Origin: an uncultured Hyphomicrobiales bacterium
GTDB lineage: Bacteria > Pseudomonadota > Alphaproteobacteria > Rhizobiales > Devosiaceae
Assembly (NCBI GenBank): GCA_903828145.1
Contig: CAIKKY010000010.1
Coordinates: forward strand, 100,039 to 164,038
Length of the DNA: 64,000 bases
Direction of reading: 5' to 3'
In this document: positions 21,455-32,597 of the stretch, piece by piece
How the letters are laid out: each line of letters opens with the position of its first letter
Numbering within the stretch: position 1 is the first letter of the stretch
Notes under the pieces: model-generated
Databases searched by the model: none
What the model was told of the DNA's origin: nothing
The model's input: the letters and a program-made list of their open reading frames with translations, nothing else
Made by a program: the position numbers and the translations under genes

Positions 21455-24112
21455 TCAGGCACCCATAATTGCGCGATCAATGTCCGAAAACTGCTGGTCG
21501 CTCACCATGACAAACAAACAGTTCCCCTCGGAACTGTCGGCCCACAAGGCCCCGATCAAGGCCTTCTCTACAGCATCGTCTGCTGTGACTAAATGTTTAC
21601 CCTTGTATTCAACGACCAGAACCCGCCCGTCTTCGAGAAGCGCCACAAAGTCCGGATAAAACTTGTCAGTCGAGGTTTGCAGCCAGAAGGAATGAGGTTG
21701 GCTGGCGGTGTTGCGCACCCAGGTTTTCACCTGGGGCAACCTCTCAAGGTAGACGGCGCAGGCATACTCCTCTCCACTCGGCTCAAGGTCACCGACGACA
21801 CGACAAAAGTGCTTGTTGAAGATTGTCCCGCCCCGGTACGGCTGCCGGTAGGCATATTTTGACTCATCGAATTCCAGTTCCGCTTCGTGGCTTGTTTCAT
21901 AGCTCAGCACGCTGGGGACGAGAACGCGCTGAAAAGCCTGCTTTTCGCGTTCTTCCCGATAGTCAGCAATGGTGCGAGTCAAGGCATCAAGTACCTTGGC
22001 CTTGCCATAGGCGAGCGCTTCCAGCGTCATGCCCCTCGAGCTTTCGAGCGTGTCCAGCGCCTTCTTGATGAACAGTGTCGATGAAGTGCGCGTTATGTCT
22101 TGCCGCGATTGCAGGGGCAGGCGCCTGTCCAGCCAGTTGATCAGGTGTGGCCTGCTCCACCCCCGGTGCTCCAGGGTGAGAGCAAGTTGCTCGTGCAGGT
22201 CCTGCACAAAGGTCACTGTCGTTGTGCCAGCGTTGCTGACATTCAGATGAGCCTCGTTGGCCGCCGTCGTTGGCGGCGCAAAGTGCTTGATTATGGCCGC
22301 CGGGTCGCAGGTCTCAAGCGGCCACGGAACGTCCAGAAAGTGCGCCCGGTCAAAGAGTTCGAGACCATTGCCCTTGCGCACGCAGAGGAGCGGAACAGCG
22401 AAACGCGACGCATCCCGAGGGTCTGCCGGAGGCTTCAGCCGAGCGCCCCTCGACTTGTGGACCAAGGCTTCCACCGCTGAAGCCGCCGTTGCAGGCACCG
22501 CCAGCATGACGGCCGTCCTGTCGTAGTCGGTTAGCGCCCCGCGGGCGAGCAGCTTGCCATTGGCCACATCCACTTTCACCCGATGGCCCGTTGCTGTCTC
22601 CACATTCAGTTTGAAGGCCGCGGCATCCACACCCTCGGGAAGGCTTTCCTCATAGAGATAGGCCGAACCGCCCTCTTCCAGGCCGGTCAGGGTCGCTTCA
22701 TCGGTACGGACCAGAGCCTTGGCTTCGATCCGTTCGAAGCCATTGGCCACCAATCCCTCCTGCAGGTTGGTCGCGGTTTTCTGAAATGCTGTGGTGGTTG
22801 CAAATGCATAGGCCCGGTTCATGTCTTCATTGCGCTTGCGAGAGGCGCGCGGCAGCCGCAGCACCCGGCCCAGAAGCTGTTCCACCGCGCGGGGCGATTT
22901 CTGTTCCGCCACCGAACAGAGCACATAGGCAAAGGAGCAATCCCAGCCTTCTTTCAGCGCCTGTTGGGTAATGATGAAGCGCACCGGGCAATCCCGGTCG
23001 AACAGATCGACGCCATCCAGCCCTTTCGACTCGCCGGTCGCAATCACAACATGCGCGTCCGGCACGCGAAAATCGTTGAGCAGCAGCGCCTTCACCGCTT
23101 CGGCGTGCAGCGTATCCCGGTCTTTGGATTTCGCTTCGGATTGCAGCAGCATGACGGGGCGGATGAATTCGCCCGTGGCCTGTTCTTCTGCCTTTGCCGT
23201 CTCTGTCAGTTCATCCAGCCAGGCAATCGCATCGCTGATGGTTTCATTGGGATCGGCCCGTCCGCGCAGGATCACGGGAAGCTTGATCATCTCCGCCGCT
23301 TTGAGTTCGGCGGCGGAAACCTGATGCAGCACATTCGAGGCGTAGATGCCCTGTTCGGGCTTGTGCTCCTCCGGCGTGACCGGCGTTGCCGTGAATTCGA
23401 TGATCAGCGACGGATTCAGCCGCGCCAGCGTATCGAACGACAGCGCCGAGCGCGCATTGTGGGCTTCATCCACAATCACCATCGGGCGGCGCAAGCGCAA
23501 CACGTTCGCCAGCGACGGCACCGGATCACCGGAAGGGCCCGCGTCCAGCGTGTTGCGCAAGCCGCCGGCAAGCCCGGTGAAATGGTCCATCAATTCGCCA
23601 TTGGCGTCGTAGACCTTACGGCCCTCCGTCTCTTCGATGCGGAAGGCCTGTATCGTCGCGACGATTACCACCGCGCCGCCATCATAATCGGCGCGCCGGG
23701 CATAAAGGGCATCGGCAACCGTCATTACCCGGATATTTTCGCCGAAGCGATCCGCCAGCGCCCGACGGTTCGGGTGCGCCCGGTCCTGAAGTGTTTTCAA
23801 CGTCTGGTCGCGGATCGTCTGCGAGGGCACCAGCCACAGCACGACGGGCGCATCGGTGCGCAGAAAACTGTCGGCGGCAACCGCTACCGAATGCGCCGCA
23901 AGGATTGTCTTGCCGCCGCCGGTGGGAATGCGCAGGCACACATAGGGCAGGCCGGGTAGGCTTGGCACCGGCACAAACGGCCGCTTGGTGAGCGCATAAA
24001 ACGCCGTGTCGGCATCGTTCAATTCAACCGTCTTCTCGAGAAAACGGCGCAGCGCGCTCAGCGTCTGGGTCTGGTAGGTCTTCAGGCTGAACAGGGGCGA
24101 GGCCATGCTCAC
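21455..24112 (-). CDS. Type III restriction endonuclease, Res subunit (DEAD/DEAH helicase-nuclease)
   Basis: YVCLRIPTGGGKTILAAHSV, VDEAHNARS, and C-terminal FYPDFVALLEDGRVLVVEYKGKHL (PD-(D/E)XK); overlaps mod by ATGA. Confidence 0.93.
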   Translation of the reverse strand: MSMASPLFSLKTYQTQTLSALRRFLEKTVELNDADTAFYALTKRPFVPVPSLPGLPYVCLRIPTGGGKTILAAHSVAVAADSFLRTDAPVVLWLVPSQTIRDQTLKTLQDRAHPNRRALADRFGENIRVMTVADALYARRADYDGGAVVIVATIQAFRIEETEGRKVYDANGELMDHFTGLAGGLRNTLDAGPSGDPVPSLANVLRLRRPMVIVDEAHNARSALSFDTLARLNPSLIIEFTATPVTPEEHKPEQGIYASNVLHQVSAAELKAAEMIKLPVILRGRADPNETISDAIAWLDELTETAKAEEQATGEFIRPVMLLQSEAKSKDRDTLHAEAVKALLLNDFRVPDAHVVIATGESKGLDGVDLFDRDCPVRFIITQQALKEGWDCSFAYVLCSVAEQKSPRAVEQLLGRVLRLPRASRKRNEDMNRAYAFATTTAFQKTATNLQEGLVANGFERIEAKALVRTDEATLTGLEEGGSAYLYEESLPEGVDAAAFKLNVETATGHRVKVDVANGKLLARGALTDYDRTAVMLAVPATAASAVEALVHKSRGARLKPPADPRDASRFAVPLLCVRKGNGLELFDRAHFLDVPWPLETCDPAAIIKHFAPPTTAANEAHLNVSNAGTTTVTFVQDLHEQLALTLEHRGWSRPHLINWLDRRLPLQSRQDITRTSSTLFIKKALDTLESSRGMTLEALAYGKAKVLDALTRTIADYREEREKQAFQRVLVPSVLSYETSHEAELEFDESKYAYRQPYRGGTIFNKHFCRVVGDLEPSGEEYACAVYLERLPQVKTWVRNTASQPHSFWLQTSTDKFYPDFVALLEDGRVLVVEYKGKHLVTADDAVEKALIGALWADSSEGNCLFVMVSDQQFSDIDRAIMGA

Positions 24113-25716
24113 AGCCCCTCGATTTGATAGGGGATTTGCTTGAAGGTGACACCAAGACGTGAAAGCCGGTCATCGGGCACCGTGCAGCCTTCGCCATAGA
24201 CGATGCGTGCGCCGCTGAAGCCGGGTTCAGGCAAGGGCAGCGAGTCGAGAACGCCGCCCGTGAGCACATTCCCGGCATTCGTGCTGGCAACGCCCATGGC
24301 GTCGGCATTGTGCAAGAGATAGATCGCCCGGCCTTGGAACGTGCCGATAAGCGGCGTTTCGCCCGTGGCACGGCGCGGAATGGGCGAACCCGTCTCGCAA
24401 AAGAAAACATGGGCAGCAAGGTCGGGGAAACTGACGGCGGCATTGACATTGCCATCGGCGTCAAAAAGGGGCTCGCCAAGGGTGCAGTAGCGGAAGCCGG
24501 AACCAACTAGTTCGGCACTGTCTCGGATCGCGAATTCAAGCCGCTTCTTTGTTACTGCCGTGCAGATGTGGCCGTCCATTTCTATCGCGATAAACTTGCG
24601 TCGTTTTTTCTGTATTTCACCAACACGGAATGCGGCATGTCCAGTTGTTCCACTTCCAGCAAAAGAGTCTAATATAAAATCACCTTCATTGGTCGCAATT
24701 TGAATAATTCGTTCGATCAATCTCGTTGGTGTAGGTGTATCGAATGCTGTTTGCGTACCAAATATTTCTCGGATTTCCTTCTTTGCTTCGTCGGTATGCC
24801 CAACCTCATCGTGCGTCCACCAAGTCCAAGGAGTCATGCCTTCTACTTCGGACAGATATCGCACTACACTCGGCTGCGCGTTTCCGTCCTTGCCCCAATA
24901 AATTCGACCTTGAGACTTCAACTTTACAAATTCGCTTTCGATCATTGACCAACAACGTCCTTCGGGCGGTTGATGCTCTTTGCCCGTCGGCGATATGATG
25001 GTGTACATCTGATTTGGTCGAAATCCCTGCGCTGTCATTGGCAAGCCGCGCCAACGCTTTGTTGGGTCCGTTTCCTTGGGGTTGTCGGGATTGCGGTAGA
25101 CCTTGGATTGCTCCTCGGTGAAATCGATCAAGTTTCGACCATTTTTGAACTTGAGCGGGTCTTTCCCGTAAACAGCAATGTATTCGTGTGCATCACCAAT
25201 CGCTTCGCGGTTTTCGCGGCTGTAGCGCTTTTGCCAAACGTTCGATGCAATGAATTTTTCTCTCCCGAAAATTTCATCCATCACCATCCGTAGTGAGTGG
25301 CTTTCGGCGTCATCAATCGAAATCCAGATCGACCCCTCTTCGCTCAAAAACTCCTTCAGCAACCGCAGGCGCGGATACATCATGCATAGCCATTTGTCGT
25401 GCCGTGACAGGTCCTCGGCTTCCTTGCCAACAACTTTGCCAAGCCACGCCTTCATTTCCGGCGAGTTCACGTTGTCGTTGTAAACCCAGCTTTCGTTGCC
25501 GGTATTATAGGGCGGGTCGATATAGATGCACTTCACCTTGCCCGCATAATACGGAAGCAGTGCTTTGAGCGCTTCGAGGTTATCGCCCTGCACCAGCAGG
25601 TTGCCCGCGTCCGGATCGCCGACGCTTTTGGCTTTGTCGCAATGGATCAGCCGGTACGGCACCTCGCGATGGTGGTTGACCACCGCCTTCTTGCCAAGCC
25701 AGTCCAACGTGGGCAT
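24109..25716 (-). CDS. Type III DNA (adenine-N6) methyltransferase, Mod subunit
   Basis: CIYIDPPYNTGNESWVYNDN (motif IV), DFILDSFAGSGTTGHAAF (motif I); start MPTLDWLGKKAVVNHH at 25716. Confidence 0.94.
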   Translation of the reverse strand: MPTLDWLGKKAVVNHHREVPYRLIHCDKAKSVGDPDAGNLLVQGDNLEALKALLPYYAGKVKCIYIDPPYNTGNESWVYNDNVNSPEMKAWLGKVVGKEAEDLSRHDKWLCMMYPRLRLLKEFLSEEGSIWISIDDAESHSLRMVMDEIFGREKFIASNVWQKRYSRENREAIGDAHEYIAVYGKDPLKFKNGRNLIDFTEEQSKVYRNPDNPKETDPTKRWRGLPMTAQGFRPNQMYTIISPTGKEHQPPEGRCWSMIESEFVKLKSQGRIYWGKDGNAQPSVVRYLSEVEGMTPWTWWTHDEVGHTDEAKKEIREIFGTQTAFDTPTPTRLIERIIQIATNEGDFILDSFAGSGTTGHAAFRVGEIQKKRRKFIAIEMDGHICTAVTKKRLEFAIRDSAELVGSGFRYCTLGEPLFDADGNVNAAVSFPDLAAHVFFCETGSPIPRRATGETPLIGTFQGRAIYLLHNADAMGVASTNAGNVLTGGVLDSLPLPEPGFSGARIVYGEGCTVPDDRLSRLGVTFKQIPYQIEGL

Positions 25717-25951
25717 CCGCTGTCCTTTCCTTCCTCCATGATATAAGTTTTTACACGTATCACGAAAAAGGTCGACAAGCAGTAAAGCGGGGTAGTCCCG
25801 CTCCAGTCGTGCGTCCGCAGACAGCGCTAAGCGGCAGCGCATCAATCGGGGCGCGCGCTATCAGGTTGGCCAGTCTCTGATCCGCCTGCGCGCTGCTGTG
25901 CGCCCGCGCTGACAGCCGCTTGCACTCGGTCGCCTGATGTCTTATTGGCTC

Positions 25952-26035
<84 letters not shown>

Positions 26036-26104: not shown

Positions 26105-26123
26105 TGTCACAACTGTGTCACAG
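26105..26123 (+). repeat. Paired TGTCACA direct repeat, left end (candidate integrase arm-type sites)
   Basis: TGTCACAACTGTGTCACAG: two TGTCACA units 11 bp apart; matches the right-end TGTCACAACCCTGTCACAC. Confidence 0.55.
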
Positions 26124-26136
26124 CGAGGGACCGGCA

Positions 26137-27132
26137 ATGGCCGCAATACGCAAGCGTGGAGAGAAGTGGCAGGTCCAAGTCAGGCGGCTTGGACAGCGAA
26201 GCGTGTCACGCACATTCATTAGATTGAAGGATGCCCAGGAATGGGCACGCAGCTCGGAAGTGGCTGCAGACCGCGAGGGTCTGGGTGCCGATCGGAGTGC
26301 ACTGAAGAGGCTGACGCTCGGAGAGCTTGTGCGGCGCTACCGCGATGAGGTCGTCGCCAAGAAGAAGAGTACACAGGTGGAGACCATCGTGTTGGATGCC
26401 TTCGCTCGGCATCCGATCTGTAACAAGAGCCTCTCAGCATTAAAGATGACGGACTTCGTTCGCTATCGGGACGAGAGACTGGAAGAGGTGGCTGCAGCCA
26501 CTGTGCGTCGTCAGCTCAATCCGATCCGGCATATGTTCAATGTCGCAATTGATGAATGGGGCATGCCCCTGCCAGAGAACCCGCTTGCCAAGGTGAAGGT
26601 AAAGGGAGCTGACAAGCGGCGAGAGAGGCGGTTGAAAGCTGGCGAGTTTGAGCGCCTCATGCAAGTGGCAGTTGTGTGCCAGACCCCGCACCTTGCAGCC
26701 ATAATCGAGTTCGCGGTCGAGACGGGTATGAGGCGCGGCGAAATCCTCGCCATGCGCTGGGAGCATCTGCAGCTCGACAAAGGGCTGTTACTAATCCCCG
26801 AGACAAAGACGGGACATCCCCGCACCATTCCTCTGACCGCAAGAGCAAAGTGGCTGCTGAGTGCGAGACTAGGCACACAGGGGAGAGTGTTCAGCCTGTC
26901 GGCCAATGCACTCCGACTTGCTTGGGAAAGAGTGACCCGCAAAGCGGGCATAGATGACCTGCACTTCCATGACCTTCGGCATGAGGCGATCAGCCGCTTC
27001 TTCGAGATGGGACTGACAATGCCTGAGGTGGGATCGATCTCTGGGCACAGGGATGCTCGCATGTTGCTGCGCTATGCGCATGCCAAGGTCGAGGAGCTGG
27101 CAGAAAAATTGCAGATCAGTACTCGTCCGTAG
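26137..27132 (+). CDS. int: Tyrosine recombinase/phage integrase
   Basis: VETGMRRGEILAMRWEHL, DLHFHDLRHEAISRFFEMG, SGHRDARMLLRYAH catalytic R-HxxR-H-Y signatures. Confidence 0.95.
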   Translation: MAAIRKRGEKWQVQVRRLGQRSVSRTFIRLKDAQEWARSSEVAADREGLGADRSALKRLTLGELVRRYRDEVVAKKKSTQVETIVLDAFARHPICNKSLSALKMTDFVRYRDERLEEVAAATVRRQLNPIRHMFNVAIDEWGMPLPENPLAKVKVKGADKRRERRLKAGEFERLMQVAVVCQTPHLAAIIEFAVETGMRRGEILAMRWEHLQLDKGLLLIPETKTGHPRTIPLTARAKWLLSARLGTQGRVFSLSANALRLAWERVTRKAGIDDLHFHDLRHEAISRFFEMGLTMPEVGSISGHRDARMLLRYAHAKVEELAEKLQISTRP

Positions 27133-27290: not shown

Positions 27291-27824
27291 TTGGACACAG
27301 ATACTGTTTTCGACTGCGACGGAAATGCAGTTGAGCTGCTCAGGCCTAATTTTGATGGAATTCCCATCGAACTTCAGGAGCGGTGCCGCTGGGCTGTTTG
27401 GAAGGCGACCCCCCGTGAGGGCAATCCGGGGAAGTTCAACAAGGCCCCCGTCAGCCCAACCACTCGCCGAATGATCGGAACCAACAAGCCGGAGCTGTGG
27501 GGGTCCTTTGCTGAGGCCAAAGCCGCTTATGAAGCGGGCGGCTACACAGGGGTTGGCCTTCTTCTGGATGGGTCTGGCCTCATCGGCATCGACATCGACG
27601 ATGCATCAGCCGCGATGCGGACCGTGCCAGACCTTACCCAGTGGATCAAAGATGCCTCCAAGGCTGGCGCCTACCTTGAGCTTTCTCCCAGCAATAAGGG
27701 CCTTCGTCTCTTTCTAGAAGGTCAGCTTGTCGAAGCCGTGAAGGGCGGACCGCTGGAAGTCTATACCGATAGGCGCTTCATGACTGTCACCGGGCGCCAG
27801 CCGGGAGCTAAGCGCGATGCTTAA
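27291..27824 (+). CDS. Primase-polymerase-like (AEP-type) protein of mobile element
   Basis: RCRWAVWKATPREGNPGKFNKAPVSP, GLIGIDIDDA and ELSPSNKGLRLFLEG resemble phage/satellite prim-pol N-terminal domains. Confidence 0.7.
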   Translation: MDTDTVFDCDGNAVELLRPNFDGIPIELQERCRWAVWKATPREGNPGKFNKAPVSPTTRRMIGTNKPELWGSFAEAKAAYEAGGYTGVGLLLDGSGLIGIDIDDASAAMRTVPDLTQWIKDASKAGAYLELSPSNKGLRLFLEGQLVEAVKGGPLEVYTDRRFMTVTGRQPGAKRDA

Positions 27825-29472
27825 TATTACGGGTGGTCAGAACCTTATCGACCGTTTTGCGGGCATGGCCGCAGCACAGAAGGGCTCTGGCCGCAATGTG
27901 CCTGTCGCTGTGGCAACTGCCACCAATGCCCCGCCTGCGGCGAATAGCAACAAGCAGCACTCGGCGGAAGTAGCCGCAATTTTGGCCGTTGTGTCGCAGG
28001 AGGCGCTTTGGGCCGGGGACTGGCAGAACTGCCTTGACCACTCAGGCAAGTCCTATACGTCCCAAAGCGAGGCCGACTACAGCCTCTTGGGCGCCATCGT
28101 GAAGGAGGCTTACTTCTTGGGCCTCCCCGAGAGCCTGGTGCCGTCCATTGCCGAGCAGGTGTGGGTACAGTCAGGGCTCTACCGGCCTGAAAAACTGCAT
28201 CGTGTTCGCACGCAGGACATTCCCAATCAGATCGAAGATAAGCGCGGATTGCTGCCTCGGACACAGGGTGGTTTGGAAATTATTGGGGGCCCTACGCGCC
28301 ACAAGCGATTGATTGGAGACGGGCGGCTTTCGGTGCCGACAACCCCTCCTCCGCCTCGGGACTACATTCTTGAGGGGCTTCTGCTCAGGTCCACGCCCGC
28401 TGTGTTGGCAGGGGCTGGTGGTACGTCAAAGACCATGTTGTCGATCCAACTGGCGATCGCGTTTGCGCTGGGGCGCGACATCCTTGAGAAGAAGTCTACA
28501 GAGGGTTGCTCCCTGCTGTTGTTAGCCGAAGAAGACCAGAGCGAAGCTAAACGGCGGGTCGGGGCGGTTTGTGCCCACCTCGGGCTGTCACCTGCAGAAC
28601 GGCTGATGGTCGAGGAACGTGTGCGGATTTTCCCGCTTGTGGGGGTCGATGCTCGGCTGACTGCATTTGACCAGAAGGTGCGTAGCCTGGCGAGCACAGC
28701 CTTTGATGAGGAGATCATCGCTACCGCCCAACAGATTGTGTCAGGAACCGGCATTCCTATGAGTTTGGTTGTTTTGGACCACGCTGGCATTATGCACGGC
28801 GGCATGTTCGATGCCCGCGAAGATACCGCACAGACGATGCGTATTGTTGCCCGAATTGCCCAGGAGACGAAGGCAGCTACCCTGCTGCTAGCGCATTCCC
28901 CGAAAGCATCAGCCTCAAAGGACTTTTCTGATGCGCAGGACGTCGCGGGTTCGGCAGCGTGGACGGACCATGCTCGTGCGGCCTTTGTTTTGCGCTCGAT
29001 GACGAAGGCAGCGGCAAAGCCGTTCGGCATCCCTGATGCCCTGCTGGGGAATTATGTGACCTTCAGCGTGGTGAAGAACAACTATGGCCCGTCACACGAG
29101 AGCATTCCTTTGGAGCGCTACGTTGTGCCGAACTACTCCGTCAGCGTTTTGCAGCCCTATAACCAGATTGCCGTCATGCGGTCCGCCCAGCCTTCGCTGG
29201 TGGACAAAGTGGTAAAACTCGTCGGCGACCACCCCCGCCAGTACTCGAAGACGACGCTGCGCGAAAAGCATAGCGGGATCAGGGGGACCTTGGGAGCCAG
29301 TAAGCAAAACGTTGCTGATGCCATTGAGCAGGCACTCTCGAGCGGCAGGCTCGTTCAAGTGAAACCCTCCGCTGCGGACCGCAAGGCTCATGGGCTCAAA
29401 GCACAGGTTAGGGAAGTCCTAGACACTCCCAGCCGCCTGCCGCCTGCCGCCCAATCGGACGGCAACGCCTAA
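27817..29472 (+). CDS. RepA-like hexameric helicase / AAA ATPase
   Basis: VLAGAGGTSKTMLSIQLAIAFALG Walker A, SLVVLDHAGIMHG Walker B-like, ATLLLAHSPK; overlaps upstream prim ORF by 8 nt. Confidence 0.85.
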   Translation: MLNITGGQNLIDRFAGMAAAQKGSGRNVPVAVATATNAPPAANSNKQHSAEVAAILAVVSQEALWAGDWQNCLDHSGKSYTSQSEADYSLLGAIVKEAYFLGLPESLVPSIAEQVWVQSGLYRPEKLHRVRTQDIPNQIEDKRGLLPRTQGGLEIIGGPTRHKRLIGDGRLSVPTTPPPPRDYILEGLLLRSTPAVLAGAGGTSKTMLSIQLAIAFALGRDILEKKSTEGCSLLLLAEEDQSEAKRRVGAVCAHLGLSPAERLMVEERVRIFPLVGVDARLTAFDQKVRSLASTAFDEEIIATAQQIVSGTGIPMSLVVLDHAGIMHGGMFDAREDTAQTMRIVARIAQETKAATLLLAHSPKASASKDFSDAQDVAGSAAWTDHARAAFVLRSMTKAAAKPFGIPDALLGNYVTFSVVKNNYGPSHESIPLERYVVPNYSVSVLQPYNQIAVMRSAQPSLVDKVVKLVGDHPRQYSKTTLREKHSGIRGTLGASKQNVADAIEQALSSGRLVQVKPSAADRKAHGLKAQVREVLDTPSRLPPAAQSDGNA

Positions 29473-29485
29473 AAAAGGCGGGTTC

Positions 29486-29582
29486 AAAGGCCCGGATTTA
29501 CAGGGGTTACAGCCGCTTTTTTTGTGCCGCCCGCAACTACCCCCCTCACAGGCGGCTGAAACCCTAACAAATCCGGGCCTTT
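29486..29582. repeat. Long imperfect inverted repeat (31-nt arms, 35-nt loop)
   Basis: 29486-29516 AAAGGCCCGGATTTACAGGGGTTACAGCCGC pairs with 29552-29582 GCGGCTGAAACCCTAACAAATCCGGGCCTTT at 26 of 31 positions. Confidence 0.85.
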
Positions 29583-29601
29583 CAGCCGCCCTCCAAACCT
29601 A

Positions 29602-29635
29602 ACGTCTTACAGACGTCTGTCGCCTTCGGGCGACA
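29602..29635. other. Tandem small hairpins in the structured non-coding block
   Basis: ACGTCT-TAC-AGACGT followed by TGTCGCC-TTCG-GGCGACA. Confidence 0.75.
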
Positions 29636-29786
29636 AGACTGTCTGCCTGTGCACAGAAAGGGTAGCCTATGCGTTTGAACACTGCCCACGTAGGCTCACC
29701 TCTTTTAGGGGGCTTTGATACGTTCATCAGGGTCGGACCCCAGCTAAAACGGCGCTCTATACAGGGCGCCGCCATCACTAACCCGT

Positions 29787-29815
29787 GTGCCTCGTTAGGC
29801 ACTTTCTTCAATTCT
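29787..29815 (+). terminator. Candidate terminator closing the structured non-coding block
   Basis: GTGCCT-CGTT-AGGCAC followed by TTTCTTCAATTCTT. Confidence 0.5.
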
Positions 29816-29890
29816 TGGTCACAGCTTTCCAACTGACACGACAGTGTATCAATGATAGTATATGTATGTGATCACGCAGAGGTGCGCCAT

Positions 29891-30210: not shown

Positions 30211-30558
30211 ATGTACCTGCGACATTACCGGGAACAGCTGCGGCAAATCAGGGAAGCGAGCCTCCGTGCGGAGGAGGAGCAGCGCCAGCGCAAGGCTAGT
30301 CAGAGTGCAGCGCCGACCTACAAGCCCCTTGACCAGCAGATCGAGGAACTGATGCGCTCGCTACCCCCTGCGCAGAGGGACCGTCCTTGGTCGATGGATG
30401 AACTGGTGCTCAGGCTACAAGGGCGCTATCGCCCCCATCCACATCCGAAGGATGTCGGGACAGCCCTGAGGCGGCTAGGCTGGCAGAGGGTGAGGGATTG
30501 GTCTGCTGTCGGCTGCGGTATGCGAGTTTGGACACGAAGCGAAAATCACGGAAGTTAA
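30211..30558 (+). CDS. Hypothetical protein with possible winged-helix C-terminus
   Basis: 115 aa, charged N-terminal helix (RQIREASLRAEEEQRQRK); PWSMDELVLRLQGRYRPHPHPKDVGTALRRLGWQRVR resembles wHTH. Confidence 0.55.
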   Translation: MYLRHYREQLRQIREASLRAEEEQRQRKASQSAAPTYKPLDQQIEELMRSLPPAQRDRPWSMDELVLRLQGRYRPHPHPKDVGTALRRLGWQRVRDWSAVGCGMRVWTRSENHGS

Positions 30559-30815: not shown

Positions 30816-30960
30816 AGGGAAGAGTGCTCGCAGTCAGCATCTAAAGTCACACGGTGGCAGCTGCGTAACGCTCTGACAGAGAGTATCAAATTGGCGCTTG
30901 CATGCGAGACTGTTCTTGTTCAGTTTGCGGCTAGGATGGCCAAGGCGTTTCGGTGTCAAT

Positions 30961-32283
30961 ATGAGCGGGAAGTCGCACGTCGGCGCACTAGCGGTACTCT
31001 TTCTTGCATCAACTCTGGGGTCCGCCAAGGCCCAAATTGCTGAGTTTGAGGACGTAAGTGCTTGGAAGACCTATACAGTTACTCAAAAGCTCGCATCTGG
31101 TTTGAAGGGTTGCATTGCAAACCAGACCGAACCTGCCTCATCGCCCTCCTTTTGGATACAACAGACAACTGACGGGAGAATTGGCTTCGCATTCTCCGGT
31201 GGCAATTGGAATATAGGGCCCAATCACCTCACAAGCGGATCAGTGACTTTTGAGAATGGATTTAAATATCCGTTCTATATGCGGCAAAATCCGCCCATGC
31301 TTGAAATTTTCGTTAATGATGTCGCGAATTCGGCGTCAATGAAGAGTGCAATTGCGAAAAGCAAATTCGTAAAAGTGTATCTCGAGTGGGCTGGTATTTT
31401 TGGGAACATAAATAAGAAGTTTTCTCTTGCCGGGTCTGCCGATGCGCTTCGTAGTCTTGATCGGTGTATTGCGCAGATTGCAGTAGACGAGGAGACGCGT
31501 GCGGCAGAGGCGGAGCAAGCTCGTGAGGCATTGAGGAAAAAAGCTGCAGAGTGGAAGGCCGCAGAGGAAGCACAAAAAGCTGCGGAGGAAGAAAAGAATA
31601 CCAGCGAAGGTAACAGTACACCACAGACGCAGCCCGCCGCACCCTTGCCAGCGCTTTATTCGGCTGGCAGCGGCTTCGTTGTGGGTGGCGATGGAAGCAT
31701 CATAACGAACGCGCACGTGGTCGCTGAGTGTAACCAGTTGCAGGTCGTGGATGCATCTGGCCAAAAATTTAAGGCCAATCTGAGGGGTGTTGACCCATCA
31801 AATGACCTTGCCCTTCTGCAGTCAGGCGCCGTGCCAAGAGCTGTGGCAGAACTACGTCTTTCGCCCTCACTTAGGCCGGGTGACAAGGTTGCGGTGTACG
31901 GGTATCCCTTACCTGGCACACTTTCGGACACGGGAAACATTGTATCGGGAACACTTAGCTCGCTTTTAGGCATCCAGAATGACGTGCGTTTCGTTCAGTT
32001 TTCCGCGCCTATACAGCCGGGCAACAGCGGAGGAGCGCTTTTAGATAGCGCTGGCAATGCAGTCGGGATTGCCACTATGAAACTTGATGAATTGGCCATG
32101 TCACAAGAGGTGGGAGTGTTTCCCCAAAATGTAAATTTTGCTGTGCGTATTTCAATAGTGGCAAGTTTTTTGGATGCCTTTGGCGTGCAGTACAAGGCTG
32201 CGAGTTCGATTGAGGAACGACCGCTTCCTGACGTGGCAGACCTAGCAAGGGCGTTTTCTATGCAGGTTTTGTGCTACCGTTGA
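30961..32283 (+). CDS. Secreted trypsin-like serine protease with IalB-like N-terminal region
   Basis: Signal peptide MSGKSHVGALAVLFLASTLGSAKA; triad in ITNAHVV / DPSNDLALL / QPGNSGGALL; charged EAEQAREALRKKAAEWKAAEEAQKAAEEE linker. Confidence 0.85.
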   Translation: MSGKSHVGALAVLFLASTLGSAKAQIAEFEDVSAWKTYTVTQKLASGLKGCIANQTEPASSPSFWIQQTTDGRIGFAFSGGNWNIGPNHLTSGSVTFENGFKYPFYMRQNPPMLEIFVNDVANSASMKSAIAKSKFVKVYLEWAGIFGNINKKFSLAGSADALRSLDRCIAQIAVDEETRAAEAEQAREALRKKAAEWKAAEEAQKAAEEEKNTSEGNSTPQTQPAAPLPALYSAGSGFVVGGDGSIITNAHVVAECNQLQVVDASGQKFKANLRGVDPSNDLALLQSGAVPRAVAELRLSPSLRPGDKVAVYGYPLPGTLSDTGNIVSGTLSSLLGIQNDVRFVQFSAPIQPGNSGGALLDSAGNAVGIATMKLDELAMSQEVGVFPQNVNFAVRISIVASFLDAFGVQYKAASSIEERPLPDVADLARAFSMQVLCYR

Positions 32284-32415
32284 CGATAAGCGTTATTACT
32301 TATTTTCGTTTTTTACGTCCTGCAACGCGCGTCTTGCGACATTACCGTGGGGCAGTGCCTTTGCCTGTCCATGTACCCCCCACTGAACTCTGACTCGCAT
32401 GCAGGACTCCCATCT

Positions 32416-32445
32416 TGTCACAACCCTGTCACACCAACTGTGACA
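32416..32445 (+). repeat. TGTCACA repeats, right end (candidate arm-type sites)
   Basis: TGTCACAACCCTGTCACACCAACTGTGACA: two direct copies 11 bp apart plus one inverted copy. Confidence 0.55.

Positions 32446-32513: not shown

Positions 32514-32597
<84 letters not shown>

Follow-up and report, generated by a model that had tools for sequence, protein, structure and literature searches.

A probable stem-loop replication origin 3′ of a RepA-type helicase gene in a tRNA-integrating element

The integrative element and its genes

The window, the whole 64,000-nucleotide stretch of DNA that was analysed, contains a 6.6-kb integrative element bounded by two identical 84-bp tRNA-Arg(CCG) repeats. The gene order is integrase, prim-pol, helicase, a noncoding block, a small hydrophobic ORF, ORF115 and an HtrA-like protease. 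A sister element resides in the same genome and serves as a point of comparison throughout. The main features are as follows.

25952..26035, plus strand: left attachment repeat, a whole tRNA-Arg(CCG) gene, 84 bp exact (ARAGORN, exact repeat)
26137..27132, plus strand: tyrosine integrase (PF00589, 5e-27; 94% identical to the integrase of the sister element)
27291..27824, plus strand: prim-pol, archaeo-eukaryotic primase-like (phrog_13901 DNA primase/helicase, 1.7e-28; phrog_1829, 2.5e-25)
27817..29472, plus strand: RepA (RSF1010)-type hexameric helicase in its own ORF (PF13481, 4.5e-24; RepA/AAA_25 type)
30211..30558, plus strand: ORF115, predicted winged helix (model pLDDT 79, wHTH topology; 85% protein identity to the sister's copy)
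32514..32597, plus strand: right attachment repeat, second copy of tRNA-Arg(CCG) (ARAGORN, exact repeat)

There is an 8-bp overlap between the prim-pol and helicase genes, and in one relative (L099) a single 841-aa frame spans prim-pol and helicase. The helicase family profile matches RSF1010 RepA (1g8y) at 1.9e-42, and the helicase model matches RepA crystal structures (Foldseek 1nlf, 3.7e-19). The C-terminal region of the helicase (about residues 461-533) is kept across the alignment of relatives and has a predicted H-H-H-E-E succession at moderate confidence (pLDDT about 50-76), which makes it a predicted winged helix. The ORF115 model had no significant Foldseek match; the protein is a candidate accessory initiator or regulator. 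Scans of the genome contigs and viral contigs for the helicase and ORF115 found no relatives, and no Pfam or NCBIfam match to a RepC initiator was found among the element ORFs scanned. Integrase relatives recovered by scanning (54% and 46%) sit in elements lacking a related replication module.

Each attachment repeat takes in the entire tRNA gene and the 7 bp ahead of it, where the usual case is the 3′ part alone; a complete tRNA is duplicated in the sister element too. TGTCACA-type repeats are located just within both element ends (26105-26125 and 32415-32445), as they are in the sister, and probably serve as arm-type sites for integrase binding. At their right ends the two elements also have GGGGCAGTGCCTTTGCC(T/G)GTCCATGTACCCCCC in common. 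The HtrA-like trypsin-fold protease (30898-32283) is cargo and weakly resembles RT-protease and other proteases associated with defence. A Type III restriction-modification pair (21455-25845, minus strand; methylase 24109-25845, restriction subunit 21455-24112) lies outside the element and adjoins its tRNA-Arg integration site upstream.

The inverted repeat after the helicase stop codon

A preliminary description had singled out about 360 bp after the helicase gene as a densely structured block with no convincing ORF. Only one ORF reaches 60 aa, a minus-strand frame of 77 aa that starts with TTG and has no family matches, in agreement with that statement. The block and its borders contain these features.

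29429..29450, plus strand: short repeats CAGCCGCC/GCCTGCCGC in the end of the helicase gene, within the same repeat cluster as the inverted repeat (repeat listing and profile)
29476..29592, strandless: proposed origin, an imperfect inverted repeat with 41-nt arms and a 35-nt loop that carries a C6 tract
29507..29516 (plus strand), 29552-29561 (minus strand) and 29580-29589: copies 1, 2 and 3 of the iteron-like TTACAGCCGC
29602-29607/29611-29616 and 29618-29635, strandless: hairpins ACGTCT/AGACGT and TGTCGCC-TTCG-GGCGACA (z of 29600-29720 = -2.3/-3.4)
29787..29806, plus strand: weak intrinsic-terminator-like hairpin GTGCCT-CGTT-AGGCAC (29787-29802) followed by TTTC
29833..29861, plus strand: promoter-like site CTGACA-17-TAGTAT ahead of the next gene (one site, 1.9 expected by chance)

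The inverted repeat had been described as 31-nt arms (29486-29516/29552-29582) with 26 of 31 positions paired around a 35-nt loop. This was reproduced exactly, and the arms extend without gaps to 41 nt (29476-29516/29552-29592, 32/41 paired). The resulting 117-nt structure begins 4 bp past the helicase stop codon. The two small hairpins at 29602-29635 are likewise present as reported. The inverted-repeat score of 18.5 is the highest of the 64 kb (runner-up 15.5), and five dinucleotide-shuffled versions of the window gave maxima of only 12-14.5. The repeat score of 29 for 29301-29600 is also the 64-kb maximum, with the next value outside the cluster being 15, and none of 2000 shuffles matched it.

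The half-site AAAGGCCCGGATTTnnnnGGGTTnCAGCCGC is present in both arms in inverted orientation. It is unique in the 2.95-Mb genome when up to 3 mismatches are allowed, and its pattern had 0 matches in viral contigs. The block holds just 3-4 imperfect iterons, with 9-11 bp repeats in both orientations. Searches of the block for three or more direct iterons of about 20 bp, a DnaA or IHF site, or a CCC-(A/T)3-6-GGG palindrome found none, and there is no AT-rich segment (AT content 0.32-0.50 across 29400-29809). No DNA homologues of the block were detected in 136 family genomes, 298 order genomes, plasmids or phages. One weak order-level match (G171, E=8e-4 over 31 bp) was rejected as chance; its surroundings are unlike the block beyond the matched hairpin.

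The sister element and related helicase loci

The position of repeats across loci was used as a test because the block has no detectable homologue. The sister element (L036:6945-13229; G000:C31) is integrated at a duplicated tRNA-Val(CAC) and has the integrase, ORF115 and a similar right end in common with the window element. Its replication protein is different, an 812-aa P4-family protein of the D5 type (primase_Cterm 3.9e-76). The strongest inverted repeat of the sister (L036:8680-8783; 42-nt arms, 20-nt loop, score 27, z=-15) starts 11 bp after the replication gene, just ahead of ORF115, and consists of four TGCGCACTT iterons, two per arm, flanking an AT-rich core. The two blocks are unrelated in sequence and equivalent in position. 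A constant position with a sequence that changes with the replication protein is as expected for a protein-specific origin, and the difference in sequence between elements with a common integrase and ORF115 means that the repeat segregates with the replication module. The sisters thus appear to be a case of a protein-origin pair swapped as a unit. The sister also carries an AlpA-like regulator and different cargo.

The wider comparison covered 41 loci with related helicases, the relatives being distant (identities of about 20-25% across the alignment). The statistic, the location of the most repeat-rich 300 bp of each locus, was noticed in a first set of loci and then fixed; the second, held-out set came nearly all from other genomes. 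The top window coincided with the helicase 3′ end in 21 of the 41 loci, where about 2 were expected, and with the helicase 5′ end in none. The enrichment was seen in both the first set (12/22, expected 1.1, P=8e-11) and the held-out set (9/19, expected 1.0, P=1.5e-7), with P values that are somewhat optimistic because a few loci are closely related (e.g. L080/L082) or share a genome. For the remaining genes of these loci, the top window fell at a 3′ end in 11 of 297 cases (3.7%). In about half of the 41 loci the helicase 3′ cluster is not top-ranked. The window element fits the pattern, its top repeat window being 29301-29600.

Many of the 3′ clusters consist of iterons phased at 9-11 bp, and the arrays are element-specific: TTCCAATCCC x9, CCTTCATCTCC-type x9, GCACGTCCGG x9, ACTGGCGCAC x8 and CTTCCATGCC x10. 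A CCC-(A/T)3-6-GGG palindrome occurs within 350 bp past the stop codon in 11 of the 41 loci, a 15-fold enrichment for a motif picked after viewing the loci. Visual inspection of a few loci had suggested a conserved ACCCCCC-TATA-CCCCCC motif, which was dropped when it proved not to exceed the reversed control in 15 genomes. In many elements of Alphaproteobacteria (L074-L146), the gene for the RepA-type helicase is immediately followed by iteron arrays with CCC-(A/T)-GGG palindromes. This arrangement looks like a general origin plan, and the window block can at most be counted as a diverged member of the set in which the stem-loop dominates. We tentatively propose, with somewhat more doubt than confidence, that alphaproteobacterial elements with RepA-type (SF4) helicases have in common an undescribed plan, element-specific iterons around a C-rich/AT/G-rich palindrome immediately 3′ of the helicase, and that in the window element, as a diverged version, the iterons are condensed into one large stem-loop, which would link iteron origins to pRN1-type origins.

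The origin reading, its alternatives and known systems

The segment 29476-29592 is probably the double-stranded replication origin of a satellite-like, tRNA-integrating element, built as a stem-loop and containing few iterons. The sequence basis for this reading is the inverted repeat, its position, its genome-wide uniqueness and the family-wide cluster at helicase 3′ ends; origin activity, the binding protein and priming in the loop are what we infer from it. The preliminary description had placed a candidate origin in the whole 360 bp after the prim-pol/helicase operon. The sister, the 41 loci and the pRN1 precedent speak for the first ~120 bp of that block and not for its full length. The origin probably extends over 29476-29592 only, perhaps together with the repeats that occupy the final ~45 bp of the helicase coding sequence. 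Points that weigh against the origin reading are the few and imperfect iterons of the block, its lack of a CCC-(A/T)-GGG palindrome, of an AT-rich segment and of DnaA or IHF sites, the failure to find homologues of it, the distance of the helicase relatives, and the roughly half of the related loci in which another cluster ranks first.

The main competing explanation is a structured regulatory RNA of about 330 nt (antisense or for copy control, for instance), either derived from the 3′ UTR or independent and ending at 29787-29806. The preliminary description had offered a structured RNA as its alternative. RNA folding of 29465-29830 gave z=-8.15 on the plus strand and -4.5 on the minus strand, which together with the shuffling result upholds the description of the block as dense in structure and, being better on the plus strand, is in favour of an RNA. 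The cUUCGg tetraloop hairpin and the terminator-like end on the same strand are also in its favour. The inverted repeat itself accounts for most of this signal, however: folding is concentrated in 29470-29600 (z=-7.3/-4.4 on plus/minus), and the main structure pairs as well on one strand as on the other (-60.4 and -65.4 kcal/mol). What is left in 29600-29830 is weaker (z=-4.3/-3.5), although the plus-strand value still counts for an RNA. Rfam returned nothing at gathering thresholds and a best E=0.4 at relaxed settings, no promoter-like site was found on the plus strand before or in the block, and no homologues were found from which covariation could be read. The unrelated sequence at the same position in the sister fits specific origins and not a conserved RNA. 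An RNA gene is accordingly unlikely, and positive support of the kinds sought (an Rfam match, a consistent strand bias or a promoter) was lacking. The positional comparison with the sister and the 41 loci, which is the deciding evidence, and the analogy with pRN1 instead indicate an origin. The segment 29593-29806 is moderately structured, has a weak terminator at its end and is without an RNA-specific signal; it may contain a structured 3′ UTR or a small RNA.

The block would be a mere transcription-termination region, with hairpins that have no replication role, if its structure reflected the end of the helicase transcript alone. It does sit between the stop codon and the promoter-like site at 29833-29861, a small hairpin overlaps the stop codon, and the hairpin at 29787..29806 is the probable end of the helicase transcript. 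That hairpin is present as first described, but its terminator-like character is not above chance, since terminator-like sites are no commoner than in shuffles (3 in the region scanned, against an expected 5.2). Terminators do not have the shape of an imperfect inverted repeat with 41-nt arms and a 35-nt loop, and 3′ ends of other genes seldom carry the top cluster vs about half of the helicase genes, which leaves termination as the sole role quite improbable. It is very improbable that the inverted repeat is an operator or a recombination or packaging site (for an excisionase, a repressor or a cis packaging signal). Inverted half-sites would suit a dimeric regulator, and ORF115 with its predicted winged helix is encoded downstream of the repeat in both elements. 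Against this, the integrase-type TGTCACA repeats are at the element ends instead, from one unrelated element to another the repeat stays with the replication helicase's 3′ end, and its sequence switches with the replication protein between the sisters.

A mechanism can be proposed for the origin reading. The integrase would first excise the element. The RepA-type helicase would then use the winged helix predicted at its C-terminus to bind the origin just past its own gene, perhaps with ORF115, with the half-site inverted in both arms as the recognition target. The inverted repeat may be opened by the helicase or extruded to expose a single-stranded loop, the prim-pol could prime on the exposed strand, and a host polymerase would extend the primer. 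The reading gives a testable origin location for a small satellite-like element and a simple rule for unannotated integrative elements, to seek the origin where the gene for the RepA-type helicase ends. Within a single genome, the sisters offer a clean case of a replication protein and its presumed origin exchanged together.

A stem-loop or iteron origin 3′ of a primpol-helicase is a known type, and the window block would be a variant of that type. In pRN1 of Sulfolobus, replication requires a stem-loop of ~100 nt that lies 54 bp beyond the primpol-helicase gene; it can be relocated and its function depends on its structure, and stem-loops of a similar kind come after related phage replication genes (PMC4234260). 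The replication gene of pRN1 joins prim-pol, helicase and winged helix. The window element likewise has a large stem-loop of ~100 nt soon after prim-pol and helicase, the helicase having a C-terminal winged helix predicted at moderate confidence, and a terminator-like hairpin close by, and in both systems the stem-loop persists though its sequence varies. pRN1 differs in having one fused SF3-helicase protein rather than overlapping genes for a prim-pol and a RepA-type helicase, and in its spacing and loop (54 bp and 58 nt, compared with 4 bp and 35 nt). Stem-loop function was demonstrated for pRN1 alone and is proposed from sequence for the window element.

In RSF1010, RepC binds the iterons, RepA unwinds and exposes stem-loops, and RepB′ primes there (PMC4234260). 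The likeness to the IncQ oriV lies in a RepA relative by sequence and fold, a separate primase and the stem-loop priming sites of RSF1010. The window element differs from IncQ in that no RepC, triplet of 20-bp iterons or AT-rich region was found, the primase is of another family, and the helicase itself has a predicted DNA-binding C-terminus. The window element merges pRN1 and RSF1010 parts: a RepA-type helicase, a prim-pol and a large stem-loop 3′ of the helicase.

SaPI elements have an iteron origin plan. The window element resembles P4 and SaPI as an integrative element with its own primase-helicase and differs from them in its sparse iterons and the absence of a P4/D5-type helicase. The preliminary description had cited P4-like satellites as an example; the helicase is of the RSF1010-RepA type and not P4-alpha. 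The P4 type occurs in the sister, whose iterons around an AT-rich core beside a P4-family protein resemble the P4/SaPI plan.
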